From the NCBI RefSeq assembly GCF_000718135.1, contig NZ_JOEM01000006.1, positions 208,088 to 272,087 on the forward strand: a stretch of DNA of 64,000 nt. Reading direction: 5' to 3'. Under the pieces are notes generated by a model, which was not told the origin of the DNA, did not search any database, and was given only the letters and a program-made list of their open reading frames with translations. Position numbers and translations under genes: made by a program. Every line of letters starts with the position of its first letter. The stretch's first letter is position 1. This document shows, piece after piece, positions 15,224 through 54,726 of the stretch. The stretch comes from Streptomyces cyaneofuscatus (GTDB lineage Bacteria; Actinomycetota; Actinomycetes; Streptomycetales; Streptomycetaceae).

Positions 15224-16837
15224 TCATCCGGCCGATGCGGCTCCGCCATGGAGGAGCGTCTCGCCGTCCTGCTCCCGGAGTACGGCGATCAGCCCGCGCA
15301 GTCCCGCCTCCGTACGGGCGATCTCCTCGTCGGTCAGATACACCGACGGCTCGAAGCGCAGGGTGTTGGTCGCGCTCGCGGTCGGGAAGATCCGCAGCGA
15401 GTGGACCCGCAGGAGGTAGCCGGAGAACAGGTAGCCGAGGAGTCCGGCGCCCGCCTGCTCCCGGATGATCTCCGAGGTGGAGCCGGACTGGTCGTGGAAC
15501 TCCAGGCCGAGCATCAGGCCCCTGCCCCGGACGTCCGCGACGATGTCGCCGAACTCCTTGCGCAGCCCCTCCAGCACCGCCAGCAGCTGGTTGCCCCGCG
15601 TCTCGGCGAGCCGGTACGCCTTCCCGTCGTCGGCCTCCAGCAGCTCGACGGTCTTGGCCGCGACGAGCGTGGAGAAGCTGTCCTTGGCGTAGGTGGAGCT
15701 GTGGACGAGCTCGAAGTCCGTACGGTAGCGGGAGCCGCGCACCAGGGTCAGCCCCGCCTTGGCGATGCCGCCGCCGAGGCTCTTGGCGAGGGTGATGTAG
15801 TCGCCGCGCAGGCCGATGTGGGAGGCGGCGAAGAAGGCCCCGGAACGGCCCATGCCGCTCTGCACCTCGTCGACGACGATCGGGATGTCGGCCGTGGCGC
15901 AGGCGTCCTGGATCCGGCGGGCGGTCTCCCGGTCGAAGACCCGGATGCCGGCCTCGCCCTGGATGGGCTCCAGCAGGAGCGCGCCGATGACCGGCAGTTC
16001 GCGCTCGACGACGCGGACCGTCCCGTCCTCCGCCTGGAGGTCGAACAGGGAGCGGCGCTCCTCGTCGATGGCCTCCGTCAGCGCCTCGGGACGGCTGACG
16101 TCCACGAAGCGGCACCGGGCGGCGAGCGCGGTGAACGGGGTGCGGTAGCCGGGGTTGTGGGTGAACTGGACGCTGCCGATCAGCTTCCCGTGGAAGGAGC
16201 CTTCCGGCGCCAGGAACACCGGGGCCGTGCCGGCCCGTTCGGCGTTGACCCGGTCGACGGCGGCGAGCACGCGCTCGATCCCCTCCCCGCCCTCCCGCGC
16301 GGGGTCGCCCTCCACACCGAGTGCGGCGAGCGCCTCGGCGGAGACCTCCAGCCGCGCGCCCGTCCCGGCGGCGGCCCTGGCCTCCTCGGCGTGGGCCGCG
16401 ACCCCTTCGAGGAGTTCGGCGAGCTTCAGCACCCGGTCGAGTTCCGCGTGCTTGACGGCCACTTCGTTGGCCTCGGCACCGCTGTTGGCGAAGATCGCCG
16501 AATAGGGCTCGGGGTCGCCGAACTCCCGGTGGATGATGCCGTTGATCTTCCAGGCCAGGTCATTGGCGTACGGGTGGCGCGAGAACTGGGCGTGGACCGG
16601 CGTCCCTCCGTCCAGCAGCGACTTCGCGTACGCCACGATCTCGGGGTTGTTGTGCCCGAGGACGACCGACCCGTAGCCGCCGACCAGGTCGAGCACCGGT
16701 ATTTCCGCCCCATCGGCCCGGCGGTAGAAAAGGGTGTTTCCACCGGATCGGACGTACTCGACGTCCAGGCCCAGCGTGGACAGCCAATTCGCCAGGTGCG
16801 GTTCAGCAAGTTCGAGCTTCTCTACCACGGGGTTCAT
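15224..16837 (-). CDS. class III (PLP) aminotransferase of the PKS cluster
   Basis: A 537-residue PLP-dependent aminotransferase, proposed to convert the aldehyde released by the PKS thioester reductase into a terminal amine. Class III hallmarks are present: NSGAEANEVAVKHA (cofactor phosphate site), the PEGSFHGKLIGSVQ loop, IPIVVDEVQSGMGRSG with the PLP-nitrogen Asp, and the Schiff-base lysine Lys352 in TLAKSLGGGIAKAG. It is about 80 residues longer than usual because of an Ala/Glu-rich insertion (roughly residues 135-195) after the phosphate site. ATG 16837 has GAGGG 5 nt upstream; GTG 16843 is an alternative. It is divergent from the first PKS gene and shares its 360-bp promoter region. TD plus class III aminotransferase is the pairing known from cyclizidine- and coelimycin-type pathways. 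Confidence 0.88.
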   Translation of the reverse strand: MNPVVEKLELAEPHLANWLSTLGLDVEYVRSGGNTLFYRRADGAEIPVLDLVGGYGSVVLGHNNPEIVAYAKSLLDGGTPVHAQFSRHPYANDLAWKINGIIHREFGDPEPYSAIFANSGAEANEVAVKHAELDRVLKLAELLEGVAAHAEEARAAAGTGARLEVSAEALAALGVEGDPAREGGEGIERVLAAVDRVNAERAGTAPVFLAPEGSFHGKLIGSVQFTHNPGYRTPFTALAARCRFVDVSRPEALTEAIDEERRSLFDLQAEDGTVRVVERELPVIGALLLEPIQGEAGIRVFDRETARRIQDACATADIPIVVDEVQSGMGRSGAFFAASHIGLRGDYITLAKSLGGGIAKAGLTLVRGSRYRTDFELVHSSTYAKDSFSTLVAAKTVELLEADDGKAYRLAETRGNQLLAVLEGLRKEFGDIVADVRGRGLMLGLEFHDQSGSTSEIIREQAGAGLLGYLFSGYLLRVHSLRIFPTASATNTLRFEPSVYLTDEEIARTEAGLRGLIAVLREQDGETLLHGGAASAG

Positions 16838-17194
16838 CTCCACCCTCTGACCGACAGTGCCGCATGACTCCGTACTGTGACTCCGTACTGGCGGCGAACA
16901 ATAGCCCCTTTATTCGAAGCGCCTGTAATGGATCGGTAACTGTCCGTCCTCCGCGCCCTGATCGCCGCCCCGACCAGGCAATTCCTCCCCGGTTCCCGGT
17001 GTGATCCATAGGTTTCCTTTCCCTGGCACGGGCGCTCTGCGGTAATCATCCGGGGAAAGCGGACGGAGATTCACGCGTTGCCGGGCCGTGACCGACTTCC
17101 TGGAATTCATGTATCGAATACGGATACGGTTCGGGGCGAACATGTGATCGTCAGCCAGAGGCGATTTCCGTCGCGGGAAAGGCAGTCGAGCGAA
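16838..17194. promoter_or_regulatory. divergent promoter region of aminotransferase and PKS
   Basis: These 357 bp hold the start signals for both arms of the cluster. A perfect 13-bp tandem repeat TGACTCCGTACTG lies at 16865-16890, 28 bp before the aminotransferase ATG. Closer to the PKS, ATACGG is doubled within TATCGAATACGGATACGG. I cannot assign -35/-10 boxes with confidence. The SARP regulator of this cluster would be expected to bind short direct repeats here, although the 13-bp spacing is not the usual 11. Confidence 0.5.
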
Positions 17195-20100
17195 ATGACG
17201 AGTGAGCCACGTTCCGAGGTCAACGGCCCGCACCGGGGACGGTCCGAGCCCATCGCCGTGGTCGGCCTGTCCTGCCGACTGCCCGAAGCCTCCGGCCCGG
17301 CGGCCTTCTGGGAGCTGCTGAGCGAAGGCCGGGACGCCCTCACCGACATGCCGGCCGACCGCTGGGAGTCGATCTCGGGCGACCCGGTCGACGGAATCCG
17401 CCGGGGCGGATTCATCGACGGCATCGCCGACTTCGACGCCTCCTTCTTCGGTATCTCGCCCCGCGAGGCCGTCGTCATGGACCCGCAGCAGCGCCTGCTG
17501 CTGGAGCTCACCTGGGAAGCGCTGGAGGACGCGGGCATCGTCGCCTCGACCCTGGAGTCCAGCGCGACCTCCGTGTACGTCGGCACCGCCCGCGAGGACT
17601 ACACCAGCCTGGTCTACCGGCAGGGCTCCTCGGCCATCACCCAGCACACCGTGACCGGCACCCACCGCGGCATCATCGCCAACCGGGTCTCCTACGCGCT
17701 CGGGCTGAACGGCCCCAGCCTCACCGTGGACACCTCCCAGTCCTCCTCCCTGGTCGCCGTCCACCTCGCGTGCGAGAGCCTGCGGACCGGCGAGTCCGAC
17801 ATGGCCCTCGCGGCGGGCGTGAACCTCAACATCCTCGGCGAAGGGATCGGCGGCGCCGAGCAGTTCGGCGGCCTCTCCCCCGACGGCCGCTCCTTCACCT
17901 TCGACGCCCGCGCCAACGGCTACGTACGCGGGGAGGGCGCGGGCGTCCTGGTCCTCAAGCCGCTCTCGCGGGCCCTCGCCGACGGGGACCGGGTCCACAG
18001 CCTGATCCTCGGCAGCGCCGTGAACAACGACGGCGCGACCCCCGGCCTCACCGTCCCCAGCGCCGCCGCGCAGGAGCGGGTGATCCGCCTGGCCCGGGAG
18101 CGGGCCGGGGTGGAGCCGGACGCGATCCAGTACGTCGAACTCCACGGCACCGGAACCCCGTTGGGCGACCCGATCGAGGCCGCCGCGCTCGGGGCGGCGC
18201 TCGGCACCCTCAAGGCGGACGGCGATCCGCTGCGGGTCGGGTCCGTCAAGACGAACATCGGGCACCTGGAAGGCGCCGCCGGCATCGTCGGCCTCATCAA
18301 GACGGTCCTGTCCATCCGCCACCGGATGCTCCCGCCGAGCCTCAACTTCGAGACGCCCAACCCGGACATCCCCCTCGGCGAGCTGAATCTCGCGGTCAAC
18401 GAGCGGCTGAGCCCATGGCCGCGCCCCGACCGCCCGCTCACCGCGGGGGTGAGCTCTTTCGGCATGGGCGGGAGCAACTGCCACGTCATCCTCACCGAGG
18501 CGCCCACGCGACCGACCGACCCCGCCGACCCCGCCGCCTCCCCGGCGCGCCCCTCCGTCGCCCTGCCGGTGGTGGTCTCCGGGCGGACCCCGAAGGCGCT
18601 GGACGCCCAGGCCGCCCGGCTGGCCGCCCAGGTGGCGGCCGACGAGGACGTGACGCCCGCCGCCGTCGGCCGGTCGTCGGTCTCCACCCGGTCACTGTTC
18701 GCTCACCGAGGGGTGGTTCTCGCCGCCGACCGGGAGGAACTCCTCGCCGGGCTCCAGTCGTTGGGCGGGCGACTGCCCGCCGCCAACGTGGTCTCCGGCA
18801 GCGAGGTGGGCGGCCGGCTGGGGATGGTCTTCACCGGCCAGGGCGCCCAGCGGGTGGGGATGGGAAGCGAGCTGTACGCGGCGTTCCCGGCCTTCGCCGC
18901 CGCCTTCGACGCGGTGTGCGAGCACCTCGACCCGCTGCTGGAACGCCCGCTCCGGGAGGTCATCGCCTCGGGCGAGGGCCTGGACCTGACCGGCTCCACC
19001 CAGCCCGCGCTGTTCGCCGTCGAGGTGGCGCTGTTCCGGCTGTACGAGTCCTTGGGTGTGCGCCCCGACTTCCTCGCCGGGCACTCCATCGGCGAGGTCT
19101 CGGCCGCCCATGTGGCCGGGGTGCTCACGCTGGCCGACGCGTGCGTCCTGGTGGCGGCCCGGGGCCGGCTGATGCAGGCGCTTCCCGAGGGCGGCGCCAT
19201 GGTCGCGGTCCAGGCGTCCGAGGCGGAGGTGCTGGACGCGCTGTCCGGACACGAGGCGGCGGTGTCGCCGGCCGCGGGGTCCCAGGCGGCGGTGTCGCTG
19301 GCCGCGGTGAACGGGCCCGCCGCCGTCGTCCTCTCCGGGGACGAGGCGGCGGTGCTGGAGGTCGCGGGCGGGCTGCGCGAGCGGGGGCACAAGACGAAAC
19401 GGCTCACGGTGAGCCACGCGTTCCACTCGGCCCACATGGACGGGATGCTCGACGCGTTCCGCGAGGCGCTGGCGCCGCTGTCCTTCCACCCGCCGCGCAT
19501 CCCCGTCGTCTCCACCGTGACCGGTGAGGTGGCGGCGGACGGCCTGCTGGAGTCCCCGGAGTACTGGGTCGAGCAGGTGCGGGCGCCCGTACGGTTCCTG
19601 GAGGCCGTGCGCACCCTGGAGGCCGAGGGCGTGCGCACCGTCGTCGAGCTGGGCCCCGACGGGGTGTGCTCGGCGATGGTGGCCGAGAGCGTGCTCGACC
19701 GGGACACCGTGCACGCCGAGCCCGCCCTGCGCGCGGGCCGCCCGGAGGACCGTACGGCGGGCGCGGCGCTCGCCCAGGCCTTCGTCCGGGGGGCGGAGGT
19801 GGACTGGAACGCGGTGTTCGCGGGCACCGGGGCGCACCGGGTGGAGCTGCCGACGTACGCCTTCCAGCGCGAGCGCTACTGGGTGACGGACCTGCCGGCT
19901 CCGGCCGCCGGCTCCTCCCCGGCGGCGGGCGCCACCACGGCCGCTCCGGCGGCCGTGACCGCCCGGCCGACGGGTCCCACGGCCGGCGACCGCTCGGCGG
20001 CCGACCTGGTGACGGCGCACGTCGCGGCCGTCCTCGGATACGGCCCCGACCGGTCCGTGGAGTCGGACCTCCCCTTCCGCGACCTCGGCTTCAGCTCCCT

Positions 20101-23100
20101 GATGACCGTGGAGCTGCGCACCGGCCTCGCCGAGGCCACCGGGCTGCGGCTGCCGTCCGGGCTGCTCTTCGACCACCCGACGCCGGCGGCGCTGGCGGAG
20201 TTCATCGGTGCCGAACTCCAGGGCTCCGGCGGCGCCCAGGAGGAGGAACCGCTCCTGGCCACCGGCTCCGACGAGCCGATCGCCATCGTCGGCATGGCCT
20301 GCCGCTACCCCGGCGGCGTCGCCTCGCCGGAGGACCTGTGGCGGCTCGTAAACGAGCACGGTGACGCGATCACCTCCTTCCCGACCGACCGGGGCTGGGA
20401 CGAGGACCTCTACGACCCCGACCACGAGCGCTCCGGCAAGTCCTATCTGGGCGAGGGCGGCTTCCTGCACGACGCGGGCCGCTTCGAGCCCGGCTTCTTC
20501 GGTATATCGCCGCGTGAGGCGCAGGCCATGGACCCCCAGCAACGGCTGCTGCTGGAGACCGCGTGGGAGTCCCTGGAACACGCCGGGCTGGTGCCGCGCA
20601 CGCTGCGCGGGACCCGTACGGGTGTCTTCGTCGGCGCGACGACCGGCGACTACGGGCCCCGGATGCAGGACGCCCCGGAGAGCGCCGAGGGACACCTGCT
20701 CACCGGGACCACCCCCAGCGTGATGTCCGGCCGCATCGCCTACCAGTTCGGCTTCACCGGCCCCGCGGTCACCGTGGACACGGCCTGCTCCTCCTCCCTG
20801 GTCGCCGTGCACATGGCGGTGCAGTCGCTGCGGCGCGGCGAGTCCGGCCTCGCGCTGGCGGGCGGGGCCACCGTCATGTCCTCCCCCGGGATGTTCGTGG
20901 AGTTCTCCCGGCAGCAGGGGCTGTCGCCCGACGGGCGGTGCAAGTCCTTCGCCGCCGGGGCGGACGGCACCGTCTGGTCGGAGGGCGTCGGCCTGCTGGT
21001 CCTGGAGCGGCTCTCCGAGGCCCGCCGCAACGGGCACCGGGTCCTGGGCCTGGTCCGCGGGTCCGCCGTCAACCAGGACGGCGCCTCCAACGGGCTCAGC
21101 GCCCCCAACGGCCTCTCCCAGCAGCGGGTGATCCGGCAGGCGGTGGCCGACGCCGGTCTGACCGTCGCCGACGTGGACGTGGTGGAGGCGCACGGCACCG
21201 GTACGTCGCTGGGCGACCCGATCGAGGCCGAGGCGATCCTCGCCACGTACGGGAGCGACCGGGAGGGCCGGGAACCGGTGCTGCTCGGCTCGCTGAAGTC
21301 GAACATCGGGCACGCCCAGGCCGCGGCCGGGGTCGGCGGGCTCATCAAGATGGTCGAGGCCATGCGGCACGGCGTCGTCCCGGCCACCCTTCACGTGGAC
21401 GAGCCGACCCCGCACGTGGACTGGTCCTCCGGCACCGTCGCGCTGGTGCGCGAGCACCGGCCGTGGCCCCGGACCGGTGCGCCCCGGCGGGCCGGTATCT
21501 CCTCCTTCGGCATCAGCGGGACCAACGCGCACGTCGTCGTCGAGCAGCCGGACCGGGCGGACGCACCGCCGCCCGTGAAGACGCGCCCCGTGGAGACGGC
21601 CGCTACCGACACGTCCGCCGCCGTCGACGCGGCGCGCGCGCCCTGGCTGCTCTCCGCCCCCGACGCCGACGGCCTGAAGGCCCAGGCCGCGCGGCTGCGT
21701 GAGTTCGTGACGGCCCGTCCGGAGCTGCGCCCCGAGGACGTGGGGCTCTCCCTCGCCGCCACCCGTACCCTCTTCGCCCACCGGGCGGTGGTCCTCGGCA
21801 CGGCCGGTGACACCGGCTCCGGTTCCGGTTCCGGCTCCGGTTCCGGCTCCGGTTCCGGTTCCGGCTCCGGTTCCGGTTCCGGTTCCGGTTCCGAGGGCCG
21901 TCTCGCCGCGCTCGACGCGCTCGCCGAGGGCGCCGCCTCGCCGCAGGTGGTGCGCGGCTCGGCCGCCGAGCCCGGCCGTACCGCCTTCCTCTTCACCGGC
22001 CAGGGCGCCCAGCGGGCCGGGATGGGACGGGAACTCCACGCGGAGTTCCCGGTGTTCGCCGATGCCTTCGACGCCGTGTGCGCGGCGGTCGACCCGCACC
22101 TGGACCGGTCCCTGCGCGAGCTGGTCTTCGCCGGCGAGGACGACCCGGACGCGGCGCTGCTGCACCGGACGCGCTACACCCAGCCGGCCCTGTTCGCCGT
22201 GGAGGTGGCGCTGTTCCGGCTGGTCGAGCACCAAGGCCTGGCACCGGACCTGCTGGCCGGCCACTCCATCGGTGAGCTGGCCGCCGCCCATGTGGCCGGG
22301 GTGCTCTCCCTCGACGACGCCGCCGCGCTGGTGGCGGCCCGGGGGCGGCTCATGGAGGAGGCGCGCTCGGACGGGGCCATGCTCGCGATCCAGGCCGGGC
22401 CCGACGAGGTGGTCGCCACGTTCGGCGCCGACGCCGACGCGGTCTCCCTGGCGGCGGTCAACGGGCCCCGGTCCGTGGTCGTCGCAGGGGACGAGGCCGT
22501 GGTGGAGCGGATCGAGACGGAGTGGCGCGAGCGCGGTCACCGCGTCCGCAGGCTCCGGGTGAGCCACGCGTTCCACTCGCCGCACATGGACGGCATCCTG
22601 GAGGAGTTCCGTACGGTCGCGCGGTCCCTGACCTTCCACGCGCCCGCCATCCCCGTGGTGTCCACGGTGACCGGAGCGCCCGCCGATCCGGAGCTGCTGC
22701 GCTCGCCCGACTACTGGGTGGACCAGATCCGTGCCACGGTGCGGTTCCACGACACCGTACGGTCGCTGTACGACGAGGGGGCGACCCTCTTCGTGGAGCT
22801 CGGGCCGGACGCCGTCCTCACCGCCATGGCGCGGGAGTCGCTCACCGACGCGGGCGCCGAGGCCGCCACCACCTGTGTCGCCCTGGCCCGCGCCGGCCGG
22901 CCGGAGGCCGACACGTACACCGCCGCCCTCGCCACGGTCCAGGCCGCCGGGGCCGCCTTCGACCTGGCCGCCCGCTACCCCGGCGCCGAGCGCATCGGCC
23001 TGCCGACGTACGCCTTCCGCGGGGCGCACTACTGGCTGGCCCCGGGCGCCCGCACCGATGTCCCCGGGCTGGGCCTCGACGCCTCCGGGCACCCGCTGCT

Positions 23101-31051: not shown

Positions 31052-31160
31052 GAAATCGACGAACTCGACCGAGAAGAGGTGGGCCGGGGCCCACTCGCCC
31101 GGCCCACCTCGCCGCCGCACGCACCGTCCCCTTCCGCACACGAACCTGGAGCTGAGAGAC

Positions 31161-36572
<5,412 letters not shown>

Positions 36573-43133: not shown

Positions 43134-43177
43134 GCCGTACGCGGCCGAATCCGTCGGCCCGACCTACCCGAGGAGCA

Positions 43178-44563: not shown

Positions 44564-44564
44564 C

Positions 44565-44594
44565 CGCACCACTTCACGTCGCACCACTTCACGT
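44565..44594 (+). repeat. 15-bp perfect tandem repeat
   Basis: CGCACCACTTCACGT occurs twice back to back in the 45-nt gap between the epoxidase and NmrA genes. No hairpin forms, so it is not a terminator. Binding site or slippage duplication cannot be told apart by eye. Confidence 0.8.
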
Positions 44595-44608
44595 TAAGGA
44601 CAGCTGAG

Positions 44609-45451: not shown

Positions 45452-45634
45452 CCGTCCGCAACCGGCCGGGCCGCCGGCCACCGTGCGGTCTCCGCGCGGT
45501 AACCGGCGGCTCTCCGCCGCAGGTCACCGGGGCCGCCGAGCGCGGAGATCCGGCGGTTGCCGGGCCGTGTCGGGCAGCCCGTAGCGTCAATCCGGCCGCC
45601 GCGTTCTGCGGGCTGCGGCACACGGCGAAGTCCA

Positions 45635-45654
45635 TCCGAACGAATCCGAACGAA
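45635..45654 (+). repeat. 10-bp perfect tandem repeat
   Basis: TCCGAACGAA occurs twice in succession, 20 bp before the SnoaL-like gene start. The gap before it (45452-45634) also holds a GC-rich hairpin GGCGG-CTCT-CCGCC. Confidence 0.7.
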
Positions 45655-45674
45655 GAGAAACGGAGCGGTTCACC

Positions 45675-46109
45675 ATGGCCAGCGCATCCCAGAACACCAG
45701 CTTCCTGACCGACGACATCGAGCAGCACCAGGAGTTGTTCGGCCAGGCCTTCAACGCCGGTGACGCGGACGCCATCAACTCCATGTACGCCGATGACGCG
45801 GTCGGCGTGTGGGAGCCGGGCTTCCCGCTGACCGGGCAGGCCCGCCGCGACTACGTCACCGACTTCATGTCCCGGAAGCCCTCCGTCGAGGCGACGGTGC
45901 TCCAGACCCTGGTGACCGGTGACACCGCCATGCTGATCGTCCAGTGGTCCATGGAGACCACCACCAAGGAGGGCGAGCCCGAGCACCTGGAGGGCACCGC
46001 CGTGGACGTGCTCCAGCGGGACGAGAACGGCCACTGGCGCTACGTGGTGGACAACCCGTACGGCGCCAGCGGCCCGCACACCGCCGAAGAGGCGGCCGCG
46101 CAGGCCTGA
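45675..46109 (+). CDS. SnoaL-like protein, candidate epoxide-opening cyclase
   Basis: A 144-residue NTF2-fold protein. The fold is seen in DIEQHQELFGQAFNAGDADA, INSMYADDAVGVWEPGFPLT, YVTDFMSRKPSVEATVLQTL and the last strand GHWRYVVDNPYGASGP. Proteins of this fold include MonB-type epoxide hydrolases that work after MonCI-type epoxidases, and polyketide cyclases. Its position close behind the epoxidase makes an epoxide-opening or isomerising role plausible. Acidic residues in the pocket (Asp and Glu around 45-52) could serve as the general acid, but the key residues cannot be fixed without a structure. It is convergent with the GlxA-type regulator, 33 nt apart. Confidence 0.8.
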   Translation: MASASQNTSFLTDDIEQHQELFGQAFNAGDADAINSMYADDAVGVWEPGFPLTGQARRDYVTDFMSRKPSVEATVLQTLVTGDTAMLIVQWSMETTTKEGEPEHLEGTAVDVLQRDENGHWRYVVDNPYGASGPHTAEEAAAQA

Positions 46110-46142
46110 CCCGGCCCCGGGCGCCCGGATCCCGCCCCGGCC

Positions 46143-47144
46143 TCAGGCGCCGCGGCGGGCCGGGGGGATCGCCCCGAAGGACTGCCGGTAGTCGGTGGGG
46201 GTGACCCCGACGTGGAGGGTGAAGTGCCGCCGCATGTTGGCCGCGGTGCCGAGGCCGCTGTGCTCGCTGATCCGCTCGATCGGCAGGTCGGTGGTCTCCA
46301 GCAGGGCCTGGGCCCGGGAGAGGCGCTGGTTGAGGAGCCACTTCAACGGCGTCATCCCGGTGGCGGCCTGGAGCCGGCGGAAGAACGTCCGGGTGCTCAT
46401 CCCGGCCCGCTGCGCCATGCCGTCCACGGTGAGGGCCTGGTCGAGGTGGTGCGCGGCCCAGTCCATCACCGGGCCGAGGCTGTCGTCCTCGGTGGCGGGC
46501 ACGGACAGGTCCACGAACTGCGCCTGGCCGCCCGGCCGGTGACCGGACACCACCAGCCGTCGGGCCAGCTGGTTGGCCACATGGGCGCCCAGGTCGCGGC
46601 GGACGAGGTGCAGGCACAGGTCGAGTCCGGCGCTCATGCCGGCGCTGGTCAGCACCTGGCCCTCGTCGACGTAGAGCACCGAGCCGTCGACCTCGGCCTT
46701 GGGGTAACGCTTGGCCAGGTCAGCGGTGTTGGTCCAGTGCGCGGTGGCCCGGCGGCCGTCGAGGAGTCCTGCCTCGGCGAGCGCGAAGGCCCCGGTGCAC
46801 AGGGAGACCACCCGCGCCCCGCGGGCGGCCGCCGTACGGAGGGCTTCGATGAACGCGGCCGGGAGCGGCTCGCCGTGGGAGACCACGGCGTCGGGGACCG
46901 AGGGCACGATCACCGTGTCGGCGGCGACGAGTTCGTCCAGGCCGTAGGGGGTGCGTACGGAGAATCCCTTCGCATCGGCGCCGGGGTTCTCGTTCACCGC
47001 GCATAACCGCAGGTCGTACCAGGGGTCGTGGAGATCCAGATGTCCATCGCCGAACACCGCGTAGGCGATGGCCGTCTCATAGACCTCGCATGCCTGCATA
47101 TTCGTGTCGTTGATCAAGGCCAGCGCAACAGAGCCAGGATTCAT
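46143..47144 (-). CDS. GlxA/AraC-type transcriptional regulator with TTA codon
   Basis: A 333-residue regulator. The N-terminal two-thirds is a DJ-1/PfpI-like domain (cysteine elbow VVSLCTGAFALAEAGLL; HWTNTADLAKRYP), and the C-terminal 110 residues carry two AraC helix-turn-helix units (QALTVDGMAQRAGMSTRTFF and LPIERISEHSGLGTAANMRR). Such GlxA-family proteins activate catabolic or secondary-metabolite genes. Residue 47 is encoded by TTA (47006-47004), so translation should depend on the bldA tRNA. I start at the ATG at 47144 (MNPGSVALALIND); no ribosome site is obvious, so it may be leaderless. It is divergent from the imine-reductase gene, which it may control. Confidence 0.88.
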   Translation of the reverse strand: MNPGSVALALINDTNMQACEVYETAIAYAVFGDGHLDLHDPWYDLRLCAVNENPGADAKGFSVRTPYGLDELVAADTVIVPSVPDAVVSHGEPLPAAFIEALRTAAARGARVVSLCTGAFALAEAGLLDGRRATAHWTNTADLAKRYPKAEVDGSVLYVDEGQVLTSAGMSAGLDLCLHLVRRDLGAHVANQLARRLVVSGHRPGGQAQFVDLSVPATEDDSLGPVMDWAAHHLDQALTVDGMAQRAGMSTRTFFRRLQAATGMTPLKWLLNQRLSRAQALLETTDLPIERISEHSGLGTAANMRRHFTLHVGVTPTDYRQSFGAIPPARRGA

Positions 47145-47281
47145 GCCGCGAGTGTACGGCAGGAATTTTGCGACATCAGTCAGTTCTGCCACTGTCCGCC
47201 TCGCCGAGGCAATGCGATGGTGCAGGAGCAACAGGTCGGACATCGTCGCGATGCAGACCAGGAAATTGACGGGAGCACACA

Positions 47282-48175
47282 ATGTCGAACACCAATGCAG
47301 CCCAATCACCGGTGTCGGTCATCGGACTGGGCCTGATGGGCCAGGCATTGGCCGCCGCATTCATCAAGGGGGGTCACCCCACCACGGTGTGGAACCGCAC
47401 GGCCTCCAAGGCCGATGAGCTCGTCGCCTCCGGCGCCACGCTCGCCGACTCGGTCGAGAGCGCCGTCAAGGCGAGCCCGCTGGTGATCGTCTGCGTCTCG
47501 GACTACGCCGCCGTGCACGAGCTGCTCGACCCGCTGGAGGAGTCCCTGAAGGGCCGGGTCCTGGTGAACCTCACCACGGGCACCTCCTCGCAGGCCCGTG
47601 AGACGGCCGAGTGGGCGGCGCGACGTGACGGCCTGTACCTCGACGGCGCGATCATGGCCATCCCGCCGGACATCGCCACCGACGCGGCCGTCCTCCTCTA
47701 CAGCGGCCCGAAGGCGCTCTACGAGCAGCACGAGGAGACGCTGAAGAAGCTGGGCCCGGTGGGCACCATCTACCTCGACGAGGACCACGGCCTGTCGGCG
47801 CTGTACGACCTGTCGCTGCTCGGCATCATGTGGGGCATCCTCAACGGCTTCCTGCACGGCGCCGCCCTGCTCGGCACCGCCAAGGTGAAGGCCACCACCT
47901 TCGCCCCGCTGGCCAACACGATGATCAACGTGGTCACCGAGTACGTGACCGCCTACGCGCCCCAGATCGACGACGGCTCCTACCCGGCCGGCGACGCCAC
48001 CGTGACCGTCCACCAGGAGGCCATGGAGCACCTCGCCGAGGAGAGCGAGACCCTCGGCGTCAACGCCGAGCTGCCCCGCTTCTTCAAGGCGCTGGCCGAC
48101 CGCGCGGCGGCCGAGGGTCACGCCGGCAGCAGCTACGCCGCACTGATCGAGCAGTTCCGCAAGCCCTCCGCCTGA
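47282..48175 (+). CDS. imine reductase-like dehydrogenase
   Basis: A 297-residue NADPH-dependent enzyme of the 6-phosphogluconate/beta-hydroxyacid dehydrogenase superfamily, closest by motif to imine reductases. The Rossmann loop is GLGLMG (15-20) followed by VWNRTASKADELVASGATLA, where NRT suits NADPH. DGAIMAIPPDIATDAAVLLY and LYDLSLLGIMWGILNGFLHG are typical of imine reductases; Asp176 in LYDLSLL sits where R-type imine reductases have their catalytic Asp. It would reduce the cyclic imine made by transamination and ring closure to a piperidine. Length matches the family. Divergent from the GlxA-type regulator; followed by a perfect 13-bp hairpin terminator. Confidence 0.88.
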   Translation: MSNTNAAQSPVSVIGLGLMGQALAAAFIKGGHPTTVWNRTASKADELVASGATLADSVESAVKASPLVIVCVSDYAAVHELLDPLEESLKGRVLVNLTTGTSSQARETAEWAARRDGLYLDGAIMAIPPDIATDAAVLLYSGPKALYEQHEETLKKLGPVGTIYLDEDHGLSALYDLSLLGIMWGILNGFLHGAALLGTAKVKATTFAPLANTMINVVTEYVTAYAPQIDDGSYPAGDATVTVHQEAMEHLAEESETLGVNAELPRFFKALADRAAAEGHAGSSYAALIEQFRKPSA

Positions 48176-48198
48176 GCCTTCTGGCGAGATCTCATTCC

Positions 48199-48227
48199 GG
48201 GGCACGGCCGATTCTCGGCCGTGCCCC
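48199..48227 (+). terminator. terminator after imine reductase
   Basis: GGGGCACGGCCGA and TCGGCCGTGCCCC (13-bp perfect arms, TTC loop) lie 24 bases behind the stop. Confidence 0.85.
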
Positions 48228-48476
48228 GTTCTGCGTTCCCGCGAAAAACGACAGGGCCAGCAGTGACAGCAGTGACAGGAACAGGAGCGGCGGGAACAGG
48301 AATCTCACATTTCCCTCCCCACGGGGCTTCGTCCGGTCACCGTTCCGGTGACCAAACCTGGACCACGGGAATTACCCACATGTGACTGAAAATCGATGCC
48401 CCTCGGCTACGTTGAGCCCGCGCTTTCCGGACACGGCATTGCCTTGCGCGAGCCCGGCGAAACACCGAGGAGAAAC
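48228..48476 (+). promoter_or_regulatory. upstream region of the amine oxidase
   Basis: No gene seen. It includes a 9-bp tandem repeat CAGTGACAG (48261-48278) and a perfect inverted repeat GGTCACCG-TTC-CGGTGACC (48335-48353) that looks like a regulator-binding operator. The ribosome site GAGGAG at 48467-48472 leads to the GTG at 48477. Confidence 0.5.
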
Positions 48477-49997
48477 GTGAGAACACCCACGGACCGCGGT
48501 CCGATATCCACCACCGTCAACGCGGCCGAAACCGGTCGTGGCACCACGCGCCCGACCCGGCGCACCCTGCTGAAGGTGGCCGGAGCCGCCACACTCGCCT
48601 CCGCGGCGAGCGTCTCCGTGGCACATGCGACGCCGAGCGCCATCCGGCGCGATTTCGACGTCATCATCGTGGGAGCCGGCCTGGCCGGCGTCACCGCCGC
48701 CCGTGAACTACGGAAGAAGGGCAAGCGCGTCCTCCTGCTGGAGGCGCGCGACCGCATCGGCGGCCGGACCTGGACCGACACCTGGCGCGGCAGCCAGATC
48801 GAGCGCGGCGGCACCTGGGTCGACCAGCTCCAGCCGCACATCTGGCGGGAACTGGTCCGCTACCGAATACCGATCGTCGCCGACTCCGGCGTGGAGCGGG
48901 CCATCCTCCCCACCCTCACCGGCTTCCAGGAGTACGACCCGGTCGAGGCGTACACCCGCCAGAACGAGCTGTTCACCCCCTTCTTCGACGGGTCCCGGGA
49001 CCACTTCCCCCGCCCGTACGAGCCCTTCGCCCGCGAGGACCTGGTGAAGCCGCTCGACCGCTTCTCCCTGCGGGACCGGCTCGACCAGCTCGACTACGCG
49101 CCGGAGGACGAGATCCGGCTCACCAGCACCACCTCGCTCTACGGCGGCTCCTCCACCCGCGGGGCGTTCACCCACCTCACCCAGTGGTGGGCCCTCTCCG
49201 GCTGGAACTTCGACGGCTTCCACGGGGTGAACACCTACCGCCCGAAGGACGGCACGATCGCCCTGCTCAAGGCCATCCTCAAGGACGCGGCGCCCACGCT
49301 GCGCCTCAACTCCCCCGTCAAGTCGGTCGTCCAGAGCAACGGCCGCGTCCAGGTCACCACCCGCGCCGGCGAGCAGTTCACCGCTCCCGAGGTCATCATG
49401 GCCGTCCCGGTCAACGTGTGGAAGACGATCCAGTTCAGCCCCCCGCTGCCGAAGGCCCACAAGGCGGCCTCCACGGCGGGCATCGGCGTCCCGCACGAGA
49501 AGAAGCTCTGGCTGGAGCTGAAGCGCCCCGCGGACACCTTCGTCGCGGAGGCACCGGAGGGCTACCCGATCTGCATCATGGGCCGCCTCAACGAGGGCGA
49601 CCACGCGGTCGCGTTCAGCGTGAAGGACACCTTCGACGTCAACCAGCGCCGGCAGGTCGAGAACGCCGTCCGCGAGATCATCCCCGACGCCCAGCTGCTC
49701 AACTACACCGCGACCGACTGGCACGCCGACGAGTTCGCCCTCGGCGTCGGCGCGTTCCGCCAGCCCTTCCAGCTGACCCGGCTCCACCGCCAGATCCAGC
49801 AGCCGCACGGCAAGGTGAAGTTCGCCGGCGCCGACATCGCCGACGGCTGGAGCGGCTACATGGACGGCGCGATCGAGTCCGGCCTGCGCATCGCCGGCTC
49901 CCCCACCCTGACCGGACCGCTGCCCGCAGCGGTCCGCAACTCCCTCGGCGCACCCCCGGTCGACCGCCGGGCCTACCGCCCTCTCCGGGGGCTCTGA
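48477..49997 (+). CDS. Tat-signal flavin amine oxidase
   Basis: A 506-residue FAD-dependent amine oxidase (MAO/polyamine oxidase superfamily). The N-terminus has a twin-arginine signal: RPTRRTLLKVAG (Arg28-Arg29), a hydrophobic stretch and a probable cleavage after AHA near residue 51, so the folded holoenzyme may be exported. FAD-binding motif GAGLAG at 66-71 and LLLEARDRIGGRTWT follow; ERGGTWVDQLQPHIW and the C-terminal FAD contact FAGADIADGWSGYMDGAIES complete the family pattern. It would oxidise a C-N bond, for example the ring amine to an iminium. GTG 48477 is chosen by GAGGAG 4 nt upstream; an upstream ATG at 48396 is in promoter-like DNA. Transcription probably ends at the hairpin at 50004-50033. 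Confidence 0.88.
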   Translation: MRTPTDRGPISTTVNAAETGRGTTRPTRRTLLKVAGAATLASAASVSVAHATPSAIRRDFDVIIVGAGLAGVTAARELRKKGKRVLLLEARDRIGGRTWTDTWRGSQIERGGTWVDQLQPHIWRELVRYRIPIVADSGVERAILPTLTGFQEYDPVEAYTRQNELFTPFFDGSRDHFPRPYEPFAREDLVKPLDRFSLRDRLDQLDYAPEDEIRLTSTTSLYGGSSTRGAFTHLTQWWALSGWNFDGFHGVNTYRPKDGTIALLKAILKDAAPTLRLNSPVKSVVQSNGRVQVTTRAGEQFTAPEVIMAVPVNVWKTIQFSPPLPKAHKAASTAGIGVPHEKKLWLELKRPADTFVAEAPEGYPICIMGRLNEGDHAVAFSVKDTFDVNQRRQVENAVREIIPDAQLLNYTATDWHADEFALGVGAFRQPFQLTRLHRQIQQPHGKVKFAGADIADGWSGYMDGAIESGLRIAGSPTLTGPLPAAVRNSLGAPPVDRRAYRPLRGL

Positions 49998-50003
49998 CCC
50001 GGC

Positions 50004-50033
50004 CCCGGGGCCGTCCGCGAGGGCGGCCCCGGG
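50004..50033 (+). terminator. terminator after amine oxidase
   Basis: CCCGGGGCCG (50004-50013) and CGGCCCCGGG (50024-50033) are perfect arms 10 nt apart, just behind the stop of the oxidase. Read-through to the P450 is possible. Confidence 0.7.
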
Positions 50034-50107
50034 TGCCAGGGGGTGTCCGACCGTCCCTCGCGGCCCCGTCCGCCCATTCCGTACGACGAAGGTGAAGACG
50101 CAGGATC

Positions 50108-51295
50108 ATGACCATCATCTCGGACGCCACAGCGCAGGACCCGACCGAGGAGCTGTTCTCCTGGTTCCGCACGAAGCTCGACACCACCCCGGTCTACCGG
50201 GACGAGGAGAAGGGCTGGCAGGTCTTCGGTTACGACGACATCGCCCGGATCCTGGCGGACACCACCACCTTCTCCTCCGACACCGCCCGCGCCTTCAACC
50301 CCCCGCAGCCCGACCTCGACTTCTTCGACATGGGCAACCTGGTCACCACCGACCCGCCCCGCCACCGCCAGCTGCGCTCGCTGATCAACTCGGGGTTCAC
50401 GCCCCGCGCCGTGGCCGGGCTGACCCCGATGATCGAGCGGATCACCCACACGCTGCTCGACGCCGTCGACGGCAAGGACCGGTTCGACCTGATCGACTCG
50501 GTCGCGTACGCGCTGCCGATCACCGTCATCTGCGAGCTGCTCGGGCTGCCGATGGAGGACGAGCCGCTCTTCCGCGTCTGGGGCGAGGCGCTCGGCACGG
50601 TGGACGCCGCCACCGTGCCGCCGGACCAGCTGCGAGACGAAGTCGCCCCCGCCGTACGGGACATGAACGCCTACCTGATGGACCAGGTACGGCGCCGGCG
50701 CAAGCAGCCCACCGACGACGTGATCAGCAAGCTCGCCAACGCGGAGGTCGACGGCAAGCAGCTGGAGGACGGCGAGATCGTCGGCATCACCGGCCTGACC
50801 ATGTTCGCCGGCCACGCCACCACCATGGCCCTGATCGCCAACGCGGTGCTGCTCTTCGACCGCCACCCGGAGTCGGGCGCGGCCGTGCGCGCCGACCGCT
50901 CCCTGCTGCGCAACGCCGCCGAGGAGGTGCTGCGCCTGCGCCCGCCGTTCCCCCGGCTGGCCCGGGTCGTCACGGCCGACACCGAGATCGGCGGCCACGC
51001 GATCGCCGCCGGTGAGCTGGTGACGCCGTGGATCGGCGCGGGGAACCGGGACGCCTCCCGCTTCCCCGACCCCGACCGGTTCGACATCCACCGGCACACC
51101 GGCAGCAGCCTGGTCTTCGGCCAGGGCATCCACTTCTGCCTCGGTGCCCCGCTGGCCCGCCTGGAGGGGCGGATCGCGCTGGACATCCTGATGGACCGCT
51201 ACGCGGACATCGCGGTGGACGCCAGTGAACCGGTGGAGTTCGAGAACCCGTGGCAGCTGATCACCCCGAAGCGGCTACCCGTACGCGTGTCCTGA
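50108..51295 (+). CDS. cytochrome P450
   Basis: A 395-residue bacterial class I P450, soluble, needing ferredoxin and reductase from elsewhere (none in the cluster). Motifs: substrate-side DPPRHRQLRSLINSGFTPR, I-helix AGHATT (234-239), ExxR (Glu273-Arg276 in EVLR), PPFPRLARV, and the haem loop FGQGIHFCLGAPLARLE with ligand Cys344. In the I-helix the usual acidic residue before the Thr (AGHETT or AGHDTT) is Ala237. The enzyme likely hydroxylates or epoxidises the alkaloid. It may also do less usual chemistry given the lost acid. The last 21 bp overlap the tail of the convergent SARP gene. ATG at 50108. Confidence 0.92.
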   Translation: MTIISDATAQDPTEELFSWFRTKLDTTPVYRDEEKGWQVFGYDDIARILADTTTFSSDTARAFNPPQPDLDFFDMGNLVTTDPPRHRQLRSLINSGFTPRAVAGLTPMIERITHTLLDAVDGKDRFDLIDSVAYALPITVICELLGLPMEDEPLFRVWGEALGTVDAATVPPDQLRDEVAPAVRDMNAYLMDQVRRRRKQPTDDVISKLANAEVDGKQLEDGEIVGITGLTMFAGHATTMALIANAVLLFDRHPESGAAVRADRSLLRNAAEEVLRLRPPFPRLARVVTADTEIGGHAIAAGELVTPWIGAGNRDASRFPDPDRFDIHRHTGSSLVFGQGIHFCLGAPLARLEGRIALDILMDRYADIAVDASEPVEFENPWQLITPKRLPVRVS

Positions 51296-53731
51296 CAGCC
51301 GGGGGGTGCACTCCGGGGCGGCGGCCGGCAGGCCGCCGCCGCCGGAGCACCGCTCGTACCGCAGGGACGCCGACCCGGACGCCAGGATCCGGCGTAACTG
51401 GTGGCGCCGGGCGTCCGGCTCCCGGCCCCCGCTCTCCAGCAGGGCCTCCAGGAGCCCGCCGACGGAGTTCTTCGCCCCGCCCTCGGTCGTGGACATCAGG
51501 AACTCCAGCAGCCGGTCGATGGCGGCGTCGGAGATCGGCTCCAGGGTGATGGTGAGCCGGTTCAGACTGCCCTCCCCCCACTCCGGCCGTCTCTTGAGCA
51601 GCTCCGGCCCGGCGGTGACGATCACGAAGATCGGCAGCCCGGCCTGGGAGGCCGTCAGGTTCTCGACGAAGTCCACCAGCGCCTGATCGGCCCAGTGCAG
51701 GTCCTCGAAGACCAGCACGAGCGGTGTGCCCGCCGCCACCGACCCCAGGAACTCCCTTGAGGCGGTGAGCATTTCGTCCGGCGGAGCCTGGGACGCGGCC
51801 GGGTCGACGAGCGGGGCCAGGCAGGACAGCATCCAGCGGCAGTCCTCCTCTGACGCCTTCAACCGCCTTACGGTGGCGGCTAGTTTGGCCGTCATCGTCT
51901 CGACCCTGTCCCCCTGGAGGATGCCGCAGCAGGCCAGCAGGAGGTCGTGCAGGGCCTCCAGGGGATGCGCGCCGCCGCCGGGCCGGACCCGCCCCACCAC
52001 CAGCCGTACCGCGTCCGCGTTGGCCGCGACCCGCCGCTCGAACTCCATGACGAACCGCGTCTTGCCGACGCCCGGCTCGCCCAGCACGGTCACCAGGTGC
52101 GGCGTCGCCTGGTGGCGGCTGCGCTGGAGCAGCCCGCGCAGCACATCGAGGTCGTACTCGCGGTCGATCACCGGTACGGCGTGCAGGGCCGTGTACTCCT
52201 GGCGGAACCCGCCGACCGTCCACCCGGAGGACGGGGAGCCGTGCTGGTAGGTGACGGCGAACCCGGTCGACCGGCGCGTGTTGTCGCAGACCCGGATTTC
52301 ACCGGCCCGGGTGTCGGAGAGCAGGGTGTGGCACTCGTCCAGCAACGCCCCGTTGACCGTGGGCGGTACGCCGCTGCGGTCCGGCTGGTAGCGCACGAGC
52401 GCCTCGCCCGTGGCCACCGCGACCTGCACCGACACCCCTCGGGTGCAGCCGCCGTCCGGCTCCCCGGGGTCGGCGATCCGGGTGAGCTGGTCCCGGATGG
52501 TCAGCGCCGCGGCCACCGCCCGCTCGGCGTCGTCGTCGGCGGCCTCGGGGACACCGAACAGCACCAGGGAGATCGGCCCGATGGACGCCGCGACCGTACC
52601 GCCGAGGCATTCGACCTCGCCCCGGATGGTCGCGGCCACCTGCTCCACCGCCTCGTCCATCCGCTGGGGATCGACGCCCGCCGCGTCGGGCATCAGCTGG
52701 ACCCGGGCGATCAGGACGCTGACCTCCTTGCGCTCGGCGACCATGGTCCGCGGCACCGGCCGGGCGGCCGCCTCGTCCGCCACCCGCTCGGGCCGCGTCT
52801 CCGGCCGCACGCGGCGCTCCGCCTCCGGCGGCGGACCGGCGGGAATCTCGGCGGGCGGCGGCGGCGCGACGGGCCGGGCCGAATCCGCAGCCGCAGCCGC
52901 AGCCGCCCGCGCGGGTTCCCGGGGGGCGCCTGTCATCCGTACCTCTATCTGCTCCCGTATGCCGACGGGTATCAGCGCCGGATCGTGCGTCAGGACCGCC
53001 TGCTGCAAAGCCTGGAGGGCGTGCCCGGGTTCGAGGCCGAGCCGGTCGGCCATCGCGGCGCGCGCACCGGAGTAGACGTCGAGCGCGTCCGTCTGCCGCC
53101 CGGACCGGTAGAGCGCGAGCATGAGCTGGCCCAGCAGCCGCTCCCGCAGCACCTCGGTGGCGACGGTCTTCTCCAGCTCGGCCAGGACCCGGTGGTGGTG
53201 GCCGCACGCCAGCTCCGCCTCGAAGAAGTCCTCCAGGGCGTCGAGCCGCGCGTTCTGCACGGAGGCCAGCTCGGGCCAGTCGATACCGGTCTCGACCAGG
53301 TCGGCCAGGACCGGCCCCCGCCACAGGGCCAGCGCCTCACGCAGCAGGACGGCGGCGGCCCGGGGCGCCCCCGCCGCCAGCTCCGCGTGACCGCACTGCG
53401 CCAGCCGCCGGAAGTGGTAGAGGTCGATCTGCTCGGGCTCGGCACAGAGCATGTAGCCGGGCGCCTGGCTCTGGAGCCGCACCCCCGTGAACTCCCCATC
53501 GCCCAGCGGCAGGGCTCTGCGCAGCCGCCAGACGGAATTCTGGAGGATCTTGCGCGCCGACTGCGGCGCCCGGCCTGCCGGCCACAGCGCGTCGATCAGC
53601 TGACTGCTGGCCACCACCCTGTTGGCGTGCATCATCAGGAACCCCAGGGTGGCGCGCTGCCGCGTCCCTCCCAGTCCCACGGGCACGCCCCCTCCATCCA
53701 CTTCCAGCGGGCCCAGCATCCGGAACAGCAT
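51275..53731 (-). CDS. SARP regulator fused to cyclase-like and ATPase regions
   Basis: An 818-residue probable pathway activator. Residues about 10-95 are the OmpR-like DNA-binding domain (RQRATLGFLMMHANRVVASS, NSVWRLRRAL), and 98-245 the BTAD helical domain, together a Streptomyces antibiotic regulatory protein. A proline/alanine linker follows (270-325), then a nucleotide-cyclase-like region (KEVSVLIARVQLM to about 480) and an AAA/NACHT-like ATPase with Walker A GEPGVGKT (551-558) and Walker B LVLVFEDLHWAD near 670. This order resembles PimR-type regulators, but the protein stops soon after the ATPase. Residue 779 is a TTA codon (51397-51395), so full-length product needs bldA tRNA. ATG 53731 has GGGGGA upstream. 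It overlaps the P450 gene tail to tail. Confidence 0.9.
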   Translation of the reverse strand: MLFRMLGPLEVDGGGVPVGLGGTRQRATLGFLMMHANRVVASSQLIDALWPAGRAPQSARKILQNSVWRLRRALPLGDGEFTGVRLQSQAPGYMLCAEPEQIDLYHFRRLAQCGHAELAAGAPRAAAVLLREALALWRGPVLADLVETGIDWPELASVQNARLDALEDFFEAELACGHHHRVLAELEKTVATEVLRERLLGQLMLALYRSGRQTDALDVYSGARAAMADRLGLEPGHALQALQQAVLTHDPALIPVGIREQIEVRMTGAPREPARAAAAAAADSARPVAPPPPAEIPAGPPPEAERRVRPETRPERVADEAAARPVPRTMVAERKEVSVLIARVQLMPDAAGVDPQRMDEAVEQVAATIRGEVECLGGTVAASIGPISLVLFGVPEAADDDAERAVAAALTIRDQLTRIADPGEPDGGCTRGVSVQVAVATGEALVRYQPDRSGVPPTVNGALLDECHTLLSDTRAGEIRVCDNTRRSTGFAVTYQHGSPSSGWTVGGFRQEYTALHAVPVIDREYDLDVLRGLLQRSRHQATPHLVTVLGEPGVGKTRFVMEFERRVAANADAVRLVVGRVRPGGGAHPLEALHDLLLACCGILQGDRVETMTAKLAATVRRLKASEEDCRWMLSCLAPLVDPAASQAPPDEMLTASREFLGSVAAGTPLVLVFEDLHWADQALVDFVENLTASQAGLPIFVIVTAGPELLKRRPEWGEGSLNRLTITLEPISDAAIDRLLEFLMSTTEGGAKNSVGGLLEALLESGGREPDARRHQLRRILASGSASLRYERCSGGGGLPAAAPECTPRLSGHAYG

Positions 53732-53745
53732 GTATATCCCCCGTA

Positions 53746-53796
53746 ATTCGACATTCGACGTCGGTCTGCGGATCGTCGGGAACCGCAGAATTCGAC
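53746..53796 (-). promoter_or_regulatory. heptamer repeats upstream of SARP gene
   Basis: ATTCGAC occurs as a tandem pair (53746-53759) and a third time at 53790-53796, within 65 bp of the SARP start. They may be autoregulatory sites; the spacings (7 and 37 bp) are not the standard SARP pattern. Confidence 0.45.
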
Positions 53797-53925
53797 CAGC
53801 GGGCTCGCCGAGAACAAGCCCGTATTACGAACACAAGACGTTCACTCGGCGGATTCGTGACATCCGGGTGGTGTTTGTATTCCGTTACCCCCGGATACAG
53901 CGACGGTGAACTCCGGGCGCGGTGC

Positions 53926-54726
53926 TCAGCCGCTGGTGGCCGTGACGCTGCCGCGGATCAGGTCGGCGAGTTCCTCGACCCGGCTGCCCAGGTAGAAGTG
54001 GCCGCCTTCGAACACCCGCAGGCGGAAGTCGCCCGAGGTGTGGCCCTGCCACGCCTCGACCTCCCGGACGGGTGCCTCCGGGTCGGCGTCGGCCGCGAGG
54101 GCCAGCACCGGACAGGACAGCGGCCTTCCCGGCGTGCCCCGGTAGGAGGCCAGGGCCCCGTAGTCGCCGCGCAGCGCGGGCAGGACCAGCTCCCGCAGCT
54201 CGGGGTCGTCGAGGAAGACGGCATCGGTTCCGCCGAGCGCCCGCACCCTCCTGAGGAGGGCCGTGTCGTCCCCCACCCAGCCCCAGCCCGGTTCGGGCGC
54301 GCTCGGGGCCCGCCGGGCGGAGACGATGAGCAGGTCGGGGCCGCCGCCCGGGGTACGGGAGAGCCGGGCGGCCACCTCGTACGCCAGGGACGCGCCCATG
54401 CTGTGCCCGAGCAGCACCCGGGGCCGGCCGCCGGAGCCGCCCAGCACCCCGGCGATCAGGTCGGCCAGCCGGTGCAGGTCCGCCACGGCGGGCTCCCGGT
54501 AGCGGTCCTGCCGGCCCGGGTACTGGACGGCCAGGACGTCCGCGTCCTGGGCGAGCTCCACGGCCAGCCCCCGCCAGTACGAGGCGGCGCCCCCGGCGTG
54601 CGGAAAACAGATCAGTTCGAACGGCGCACCGGCGCGCGCGGCCTCCCTTGTATCGGTGCCGAATTTCCGGAACCAGAGATTCCGTTCGCTACTTGCCACT
54701 TTCGGACCGCCCTGACGAATCGTCAT
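53926..54726 (-). CDS. type II thioesterase
   Basis: A 266-residue alpha/beta hydrolase of the external editing thioesterase class (RifR/TEII). The N-terminal FPHAGGAASYWRGLA motif, nucleophile Ser109 in GHSMGAS, the acid region LAADADPEAPV and His243 in GGHFYLGS are all present. It removes stalled or wrongly primed acyl groups from PKS carrier proteins, which matters here because the reductase cannot release stalled chains. The ATG at 54726 is used; GTG 54699 is an alternative. It lies 194 nt upstream of the SARP gene on the same strand and may share its transcript or have its own promoter. Confidence 0.92.
   Translation of the reverse strand: MTIRQGGPKVASSERNLWFRKFGTDTREAARAGAPFELICFPHAGGAASYWRGLAVELAQDADVLAVQYPGRQDRYREPAVADLHRLADLIAGVLGGSGGRPRVLLGHSMGASLAYEVAARLSRTPGGGPDLLIVSARRAPSAPEPGWGWVGDDTALLRRVRALGGTDAVFLDDPELRELVLPALRGDYGALASYRGTPGRPLSCPVLALAADADPEAPVREVEAWQGHTSGDFRLRVFEGGHFYLGSRVEELADLIRGSVTATSG

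Follow-up and report, generated by a model that had tools for sequence, protein, structure and literature searches.

Analysis of a 64,000-nucleotide stretch of the Streptomyces cyaneofuscatus genome (contig NZ_JOEM01000006.1, positions 208,088 to 272,087; hereinafter, the window, with coordinates counted from its first letter) points to a complete polyketide-alkaloid gene cluster that, judging from the sequence, quite likely directs the synthesis of a 3-methyl-4-hydroxy-2-pentadienyl piperideine and then of the respective piperidine. The cluster spans 14.7 to 54.9 kb when a gene for a PNPOx-family protein at its left end is counted. The same gene order, namely PNPOx, aminotransferase, three polyketide synthase (PKS) genes (P1, P2, P3), a flavin adenine dinucleotide (FAD) protein, NmrA, SnoaL, AraC, imine reductase, amine oxidase, cytochrome P450 and SARP, was detected in seven other Streptomyces genomes (Streptomyces sp. 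JHD 1, S. ipomoeae 91-03, S. viridochromogenes DSM 40736, S. verrucosisporus, S. muensis, and the genomes denoted here G358 and G235), to the extent that their sequence was available, with 60-87% protein identity; in several of these genomes the cluster is spread over more than one contig, the S. ipomoeae contig stops before the amine oxidase, and G225, taken to be the S. muensis genome, was counted once. The clustering is not due to chance because the order is conserved in the seven other genomes. The cluster is a conserved family represented in at least eight Streptomyces genomes, not a strain-specific feature.

The architecture of the assembly line was read from Pfam domains and from motifs in the translated sequence. 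P1 (17195..31051, plus strand) combines a loader, KSQ-AT-ACP, with modules 1 and 2, each KS-AT-DH-KR-ACP (KS, ketosynthase; AT, acyltransferase; DH, dehydratase; KR, ketoreductase; ACP, acyl carrier protein); P2 (31161..36572, plus strand, with a GTG start at 31161) is module 3, KS-AT(methylmalonyl)-DH-KR-ACP, in which the DH appears dead and the KR inactive; and P3 (36660..43133, plus strand) consists of module 4, KS-AT-DH-KR-ACP, also with an apparently dead DH, followed by a thioester reductase (TR). In the loader KS, Gln replaces Cys (VDTSQSSS), and the accompanying AT is of the malonyl type. This reading bears out the KSQ starter and four extension modules that had been proposed in an initial annotation made from the DNA letters alone. 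The linker between the KS and AT of module 1 contains a (Gly-Ser)n run (21813-21893, about 13.5 copies of the six-base unit CCGGTT) that is possibly variable in length.

The AT domains of the loader and of modules 1, 2 and 4 carry the motifs GHS[IV]GE and HAFH, which we take to signify malonyl specificity, and the AT of module 3 (32853..33800, plus strand) carries RVEVVQ, GHSQGE and YASH, presumably the methylmalonyl signature. In comparison with PDB sequences, the nearest entries for the module-3 AT are 6iyr (4.7e-115), a fusion containing Lsd14 (1.2e-102) and DEBS (7.6e-97), ahead of 6iyo (5.9e-47) and CurL (8.7e-38); for the module-4 AT, the nearest are a GfsA chimera (2.8e-105) and two entries named polyketide synthase (1.5e-95), followed by 6iyo (7.9e-88), CurL (5.6e-68) and DEBS (2hg4, 1.3e-43). 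We assume that the entries nearest to the module-3 AT are of the methylmalonyl type and those nearest to the module-4 AT of the malonyl type. YASH is present in all six readable genomes and GHSQGE in five of five; S. ipomoeae and S. verrucosisporus are outside the counts of six for module 3 given here and below, their module 3 lying beyond the sequence obtained. Thus, the C10 chain with a single methyl branch at C4 that the initial annotation had envisaged agrees with the motifs of the module-3 AT and with their conservation.

The reductive domains differ in condition between the modules. In modules 1 and 2, the motifs expected of a DH (His, Asp and YGPxF) are found, as is the Ser-Tyr-Asn set of a KR. 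The module-3 KR (KR3; 35265..35801, plus strand) retains Ser and Tyr, but the catalytic Asn is replaced by Gly (NYAAAG, codon at approximately 35721), whereas the remaining KRs of the window read NYAAAN or SYAAAN. This replacement is found in all six readable family members and in none of the 19 other KR rows listed, a list that includes only KRs matching the search pattern and in which one row is the G225 copy. The module-3 DH shows substitutions of Ser for Pro and Arg for Asp and lacks YGPxF, and its catalytic Asp is replaced in all six readable genomes (by R, E, E, E, E and Q), with S. viridochromogenes counted although its motif sits in another frame than the AT and KR. With the KR and DH of module 3 both inactive, C5 would stay a ketone, as had been predicted from an inactive reductive loop. 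In module 4, the KR appears good, and the DH lacks YGPxF and has Arg in place of His; this DH is degenerate in five of the five alignable family members, a count that omits S. viridochromogenes (which reads as X at this place) and S. muensis and S. ipomoeae (which lie outside the alignment). Because the module-4 DH appears to be dead, a hydroxyl at C3, equivalent to the 4-hydroxyl of the piperidine, is predicted, a feature that the initial annotation did not state. In the P2 ortholog of S. viridochromogenes DSM 40736 (L122/L123), the module-3 DH contains a frameshift, perhaps an assembly error.

Several observations weigh against this interpretation of the assembly line. The PDB entry 11sz, which is named DEBS, falls in with the malonyl-type entries (1.1e-87 against the module-4 AT and 3.1e-33 against the module-3 AT), and the module-4 DH in the window still has the Asp and HxxxGxxxxP motifs. 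KR3 retains the NADPH motif GGTGALG along with Ser and Tyr, so that its loss of ketoreductase activity is no more than likely. Were KR3 still to reduce its substrate, C5 would bear a hydroxyl, no imine could form at this position, and the product would be a linear or otherwise cyclized amine. The intact motif and residues fit such an outcome, which nevertheless appears quite unlikely given that Gly replaces Asn throughout the readable members of the family while the other KRs listed retain Asn, that an imine reductase gene was matched in all eight genomes, and that iminimycin and cyclizidine have a ketone at the equivalent place according to PMC11278551. The last of these observations concerns the module-2 DH of this strain, where Asp takes the position of the Gly of the HxxxGxxxxP motif; together with the (Gly-Ser)n run in module 1, this could indicate that the cluster has decayed in the strain and yields no product or a truncated chain. 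We assign a very small probability to such decay: the frames that were read are open, every gene of the family order is present, and of the 22 DHs that a pattern search of the fetched loci turned up and that are otherwise intact, 3 carry the same Asp, this one included. A failure of the module-2 DH was weighed on its own and was not adopted, two other otherwise intact DHs having the same residue.

Under the favored scheme, in which KR3 is inactive and C5 remains a ketone, KSQ would decarboxylate malonyl-ACP to provide an acetyl starter; modules 1 and 2 would each add malonate, giving rise to the C8=C9 and C6=C7 double bonds; module 3 would add methylmalonate, the source of the C4 methyl, with C5 left as a ketone; and module 4 would add malonate, with C3 reduced to a hydroxyl. 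The terminal TR (42039..43112, plus strand), which scores 327.6 bits against a cut-off of 213.35 for TIGR01746 and 232 bits for NAD_binding_4, would then free the C1 aldehyde, 3-hydroxy-4-methyl-5-oxo-deca-6,8-dienal (C11H16O3), consistent with the reductive release anticipated in the initial annotation. The class III (omega) aminotransferase (15224..16843, minus strand; Aminotran_3, 185 bits) is most similar to CrmG (4.7e-153, with the runner-up at 9e-35) and is matched at 72-81% in all seven relatives. This CrmG-type enzyme would convert the aldehyde into the C1 amine that had been predicted for it, and the amine would close on C5 to give a six-membered imine, 3-methyl-4-hydroxy-2-(penta-1,3-dienyl)-1-piperideine (C11H17NO). 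The imine reductase would reduce the latter to the piperidine C11H19NO, with an expected [M+H]+ of 182.1539. We infer every chemical step of this scheme, and those past the cyclic imine are speculative; the logic of the initial proposal (a six-membered imine with a diene side chain, a C4 methyl and a C1 amine) passed every sequence test made.

The imine reductase, epoxidase, SnoaL-like, NmrA, P450 and amine oxidase genes listed in the initial annotation are all present according to profile or PDB matches. The imine reductase (47282..48175, plus strand; RedAm-like C, 149 bits) is closely similar to PDB 8j44 (3.3e-159) and to the R-imine reductase 3zgy (2.7e-109); many homologs with 64-79% identity are found in other genera and species, so that this gene alone is no marker of the family. 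In G235 (L131), the match consists of two pieces in different frames, a frameshift that is perhaps an assembly error. The flavin monooxygenase (43178..44563, plus strand, its start chosen by the ribosome-binding site) belongs to the MonCI/Lsd18(LasC) family of polyether epoxidases (PDB matches MonCI, 1.5e-53, and LasC/Lsd18, 6e-52) and is a likely side-chain epoxidase. It is followed by an NmrA/EasG-like NAD(P)-binding reductase (44609..45451, plus strand; NmrA, 49 bits; 176.5 for TIGR03649 ergot_EASG, under the cut-off of 256.4) and by a SnoaL/NTF2-like protein (45675..46109, plus strand; profile and PDB matches), a candidate catalyst of epoxide opening, which is a distant NTF2 protein (yybH, 2.6e-06) with a weak match to MonBI (E 0.02). 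The flavin amine oxidase (48396..49997, plus strand; Amino_oxidase, 167 bits) is related to PDB entries named amine oxidase (5.3e-77), MAO-N (2.2e-54) and (S)-6-hydroxynicotine oxidase (1.5e-49), and the cytochrome P450 (50108..51295, plus strand) scores 115 bits for p450. The MonCI-type enzyme would probably epoxidize the side-chain diene, and the SnoaL-like protein, amine oxidase, P450 and NmrA-like reductase may finish the molecule, possibly via attack of the nitrogen on the epoxide.

With four SnoaL queries representing both subtypes, one site was matched in the window and one in every one of the seven related clusters, in each case nearer the first subtype, whereas the comparison clusters in the genomes G071, G101 and G010 contain two SnoaL genes each; none was found in the comparison loci of G178, G251, G034 and G355. 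In the alignment, both subtypes are represented in G101 and G071, and for G010, one of the two sequences is usable (L155:14012-14401, with a stop in its translation, was left out). The joint presence of an epoxidase and a SnoaL-type protein would be compatible with a carbocyclic ring as in streptazone and abikoviromycin, where C4 attacks the epoxide to yield a cyclopenta[b]pyridine, here with a methyl at the ring fusion; PMC5820336 proposes that epoxide opening in the argimycin/streptazone pathways is coupled to closure of the five-membered ring. The same source, however, proposes that the argimycin closure requires ArpHI and ArpHII jointly. In the present cluster, moreover, the methyl-bearing C4 would become quaternary. 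A C-C closure of the streptazone type is disfavored because each cluster of the family has one SnoaL-type gene versus two in the three comparison clusters, and we regard it as improbable.

Closure through nitrogen or simple opening of the epoxide appears likelier, because of the single SnoaL gene and of the methyl on C4. Tentatively, and with considerable doubt, we propose that the C11 skeleton is a side-chain-epoxidized 3-methyl-2-alkenylpiperidin-4-ol, closed through nitrogen to an 8-methylindolizidine or a methylquinolizidine, and that it is unreported. To our knowledge, such a nitrogen-closed C11 product would be the smallest bacterial polyketide indolizidine; the 8-methylindolizidine core occurs in the 5,8-disubstituted indolizidines of poison frogs. 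The extra methyl provides a probe of how the shared epoxidase/SnoaL machinery copes with a blocked C4, and the conserved Asn to Gly replacement in KR3 offers a clean case from nature of a ketoreductase, probably switched off, by which the site of nitrogen ring closure is set.

The limits of the cluster were delineated from both sides. At the left end, a PNPOx-family split-barrel protein (14699..15151, plus strand; PNPOx_N, 53 bits), similar to Rv1155 in the PDB (1.6e-41), is encoded next to the aminotransferase in all seven related clusters; beyond it, the genes in the seven genomes are unrelated except for weak SARP-type matches, and the left end was fixed at PNPOx for this reason. At the right end, a type II thioesterase with a predicted editing role (53926..54930, minus strand; Thioesterase, 156 bits) has a true start that is probably downstream of the listed ATG because homology starts near residue 80; it was matched in G358, G235, S. 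verrucosisporus and S. muensis and, over a stretch of 40 residues, in the locus of JHD 1, and was not found in the S. viridochromogenes stretch obtained. The interval 15224..54726 given in the initial annotation thus came close on the right, where the thioesterase gene ends at 54930, and left the PNPOx gene at 14699 outside. To the right of the cluster, G358 and G235 have further genes in common, and therefore this end rests on host relatives with an empty site. By a fast-evolving neighboring protein, the host is placed beside S. cyaneofuscatus (86-96% identity to five entries so named) and S. arboris (93%). In a blastn comparison of the window, the insert (14310..55206) sits between ask/asd and DUF5063-recR-ybaB, and four host relatives (L165-L168) lack it: their alignments end at 14160-14309 and restart at 55207-55226. 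In these relatives, approximately 70 bases to 2.1 kb separate one alignment from the other, so that two of the four empty sites carry some other DNA; a fifth relative tried, G007, gave no ask match and was excluded. When the aminotransferase was used as the query against 40 other relatives (E 1e-150), only G010 was matched, at 62%, within a different cluster. The cluster is complete and was probably acquired by horizontal transfer.

Two regulators are encoded within these limits, an AraC/DJ-1 (GlxA-type) transcriptional regulator (46143..47309, minus strand) and a SARP-AAA pathway regulator (51275..53731, minus strand; BTAD, 142 bits, and AAA_16), for which PADLOC gave no match. To assess the spread of the family, the FAD protein was compared with a collection of species genomes, where, among the best 80 matches, five at 73-75% were followed by a drop to 53%; in a sample of 392 genomes of the genus, four others reached at least 70%, one of which is G277, without the rest of the cluster, and another is G225. 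The FAD gene occurs without the other cluster genes in G277 (70-72%) and G043 (60%), and some homolog is present in 350 of the 392 genomes, so this gene alone was rejected as a marker and only the whole gene order was counted.

There is an appreciable, if minor, chance that the chain logic is right and the product is an already described alkaloid, considering that at least eight Streptomyces genomes carry the cluster, that of S. viridochromogenes DSM 40736 among them. Against this possibility, no related compound is described as having a chain of five units and just one methyl, placed beside the imine carbon, in the accessible portions of the open-licence literature on streptazolin, streptazones, SS20846A, streptopyridines, argimycins, coelimycin, cyclizidines and iminimycins, and no paper on this cluster or on a C11 methyl-branched member was recognized in that literature. 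Streptazolin, a pentaketide without a methyl, was rejected as the product in view of the methylmalonyl AT of module 3, and louisianins and other C11 Streptomyces nitrogen heterocycles were rejected because their ring fusion does not suit a C5-alkyl piperidine. The 2017 study of Awodi is said to be the main genome-mining survey of this class of alkaloids. The cluster is an orphan that is compact, complete and conserved, and its product is predicted to the level of a formula and can be searched for by mass.

The window contains several other features of note. A second class III aminotransferase (59905-61416, minus strand) is located beside a GntR/FCD regulator (59040-59750, minus strand) just outside the cluster. 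Two matches to the Rfam family ASpks (RF01782) exceed the gathering score (32214-32288 and 37719-37790, both on the minus strand, antisense to P2 and P3); they were rejected as genuine small RNAs and most likely reflect similarity among PKS sequences. The minus strand opposite the PKS genes (18692-31141) contains very long open frames, such as 23465-31141 (2558 aa), which are attributable to the 73% G+C content and fail the codon-position G+C filter. No tRNA genes were found in the window.

Comparison with known systems places the cluster in the polyketide-alkaloid class defined by reductive release and transamination: a C-terminal TR is present on a modular type I PKS, along with a dedicated class III aminotransferase that is kept in all seven relatives. 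The coelimycin P1 cluster (cpk) similarly encodes an aminotransferase, a flavin epoxidase and a SARP, but has more modules. In G178 and G251, homologs of the aminotransferase (56-58%), FAD protein, NmrA and SARP are clustered, with the epoxidase (54-56%) encoded beside the first PKS gene, an arrangement that we take to be cpk-like; all AT motifs seen in these loci are of the malonyl type, and no match to the imine reductase was found in them. The clusters in G071 and G101 encode an imine reductase, an amine oxidase, the FAD protein and an aminotransferase besides their two SnoaL proteins; indolizidines as their products are no more than a guess. The G010 cluster (L154-L157, G010:C4) is also polyketide-alkaloid-like, with the 62% aminotransferase, an imine reductase, NmrA and two SnoaL genes, and S. 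viridochromogenes has a further cluster of this kind at 955000-1014999 (L158-L160) with an aminotransferase homolog at 59%.

The argimycin P cluster (arp) is similar in having three PKS proteins, an aminotransferase, an imine reductase, a SnoaL-like cyclase, a type II thioesterase and a SARP, as described in PMC5300972, and ArpDHII was confirmed as an imine reductase by nigrifactin feeding, according to PMC5820336. However, arp and the streptazone E cluster (stz) yield hexaketides (from six malonyl units in the case of arp) and employ two SnoaL-like cyclases, in contrast to the single SnoaL gene and the methylmalonyl unit of the present cluster. According to PMC9733639, arp lacks the functions of the cpkD-type epoxidase; there, CpkD is proposed to act on argimycin intermediates by epoxidizing their C9-C10 double bond, leading to quinolizidines, and the second ring of the argimycin-hybrid nitrogen bicycles is thought to close spontaneously.

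The iminimycin and cyclizidine pathways share with the predicted one the C5-equivalent ketone and C3-equivalent hydroxyl (here, as judged from predicted domain activities), reductive release, amination, a cyclic imine and later oxidation, but involve seven or eight modules, compared to the loader plus four modules found here, longer chains and methylmalonate at other positions; the iminimycin chain consists of a polyene, a ketone, a hydroxyl and an aldehyde, is aminated by ImiB, and closes into a six-membered ring in a step that is called spontaneous (PMC11278551). Closer still in the size of the chain are streptazolin, SS20846A and the streptopyridines, for which PMC4077424 describes a pentaketide diene, proposed reduction and transamination, a pentadienyl six-membered imine and a 4-hydroxyl, SS20846A and the streptopyridines being proposed to arise via a pentaketide, an amine and a piperideine; these alkaloids come from Streptomyces sp. 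FORM5 and others, and the streptazolin cluster had still not been identified in 2014 according to the same source. The difference is that streptopyridine incorporates up to five acetates (PMC4077424), whereas here the methylmalonate of module 3 would add a methyl at C3 of the piperidine. The predicted piperidine would therefore be the 3-methyl homolog of SS20846A, which, together with the streptopyridines, is the nearest of the reported molecules considered here.

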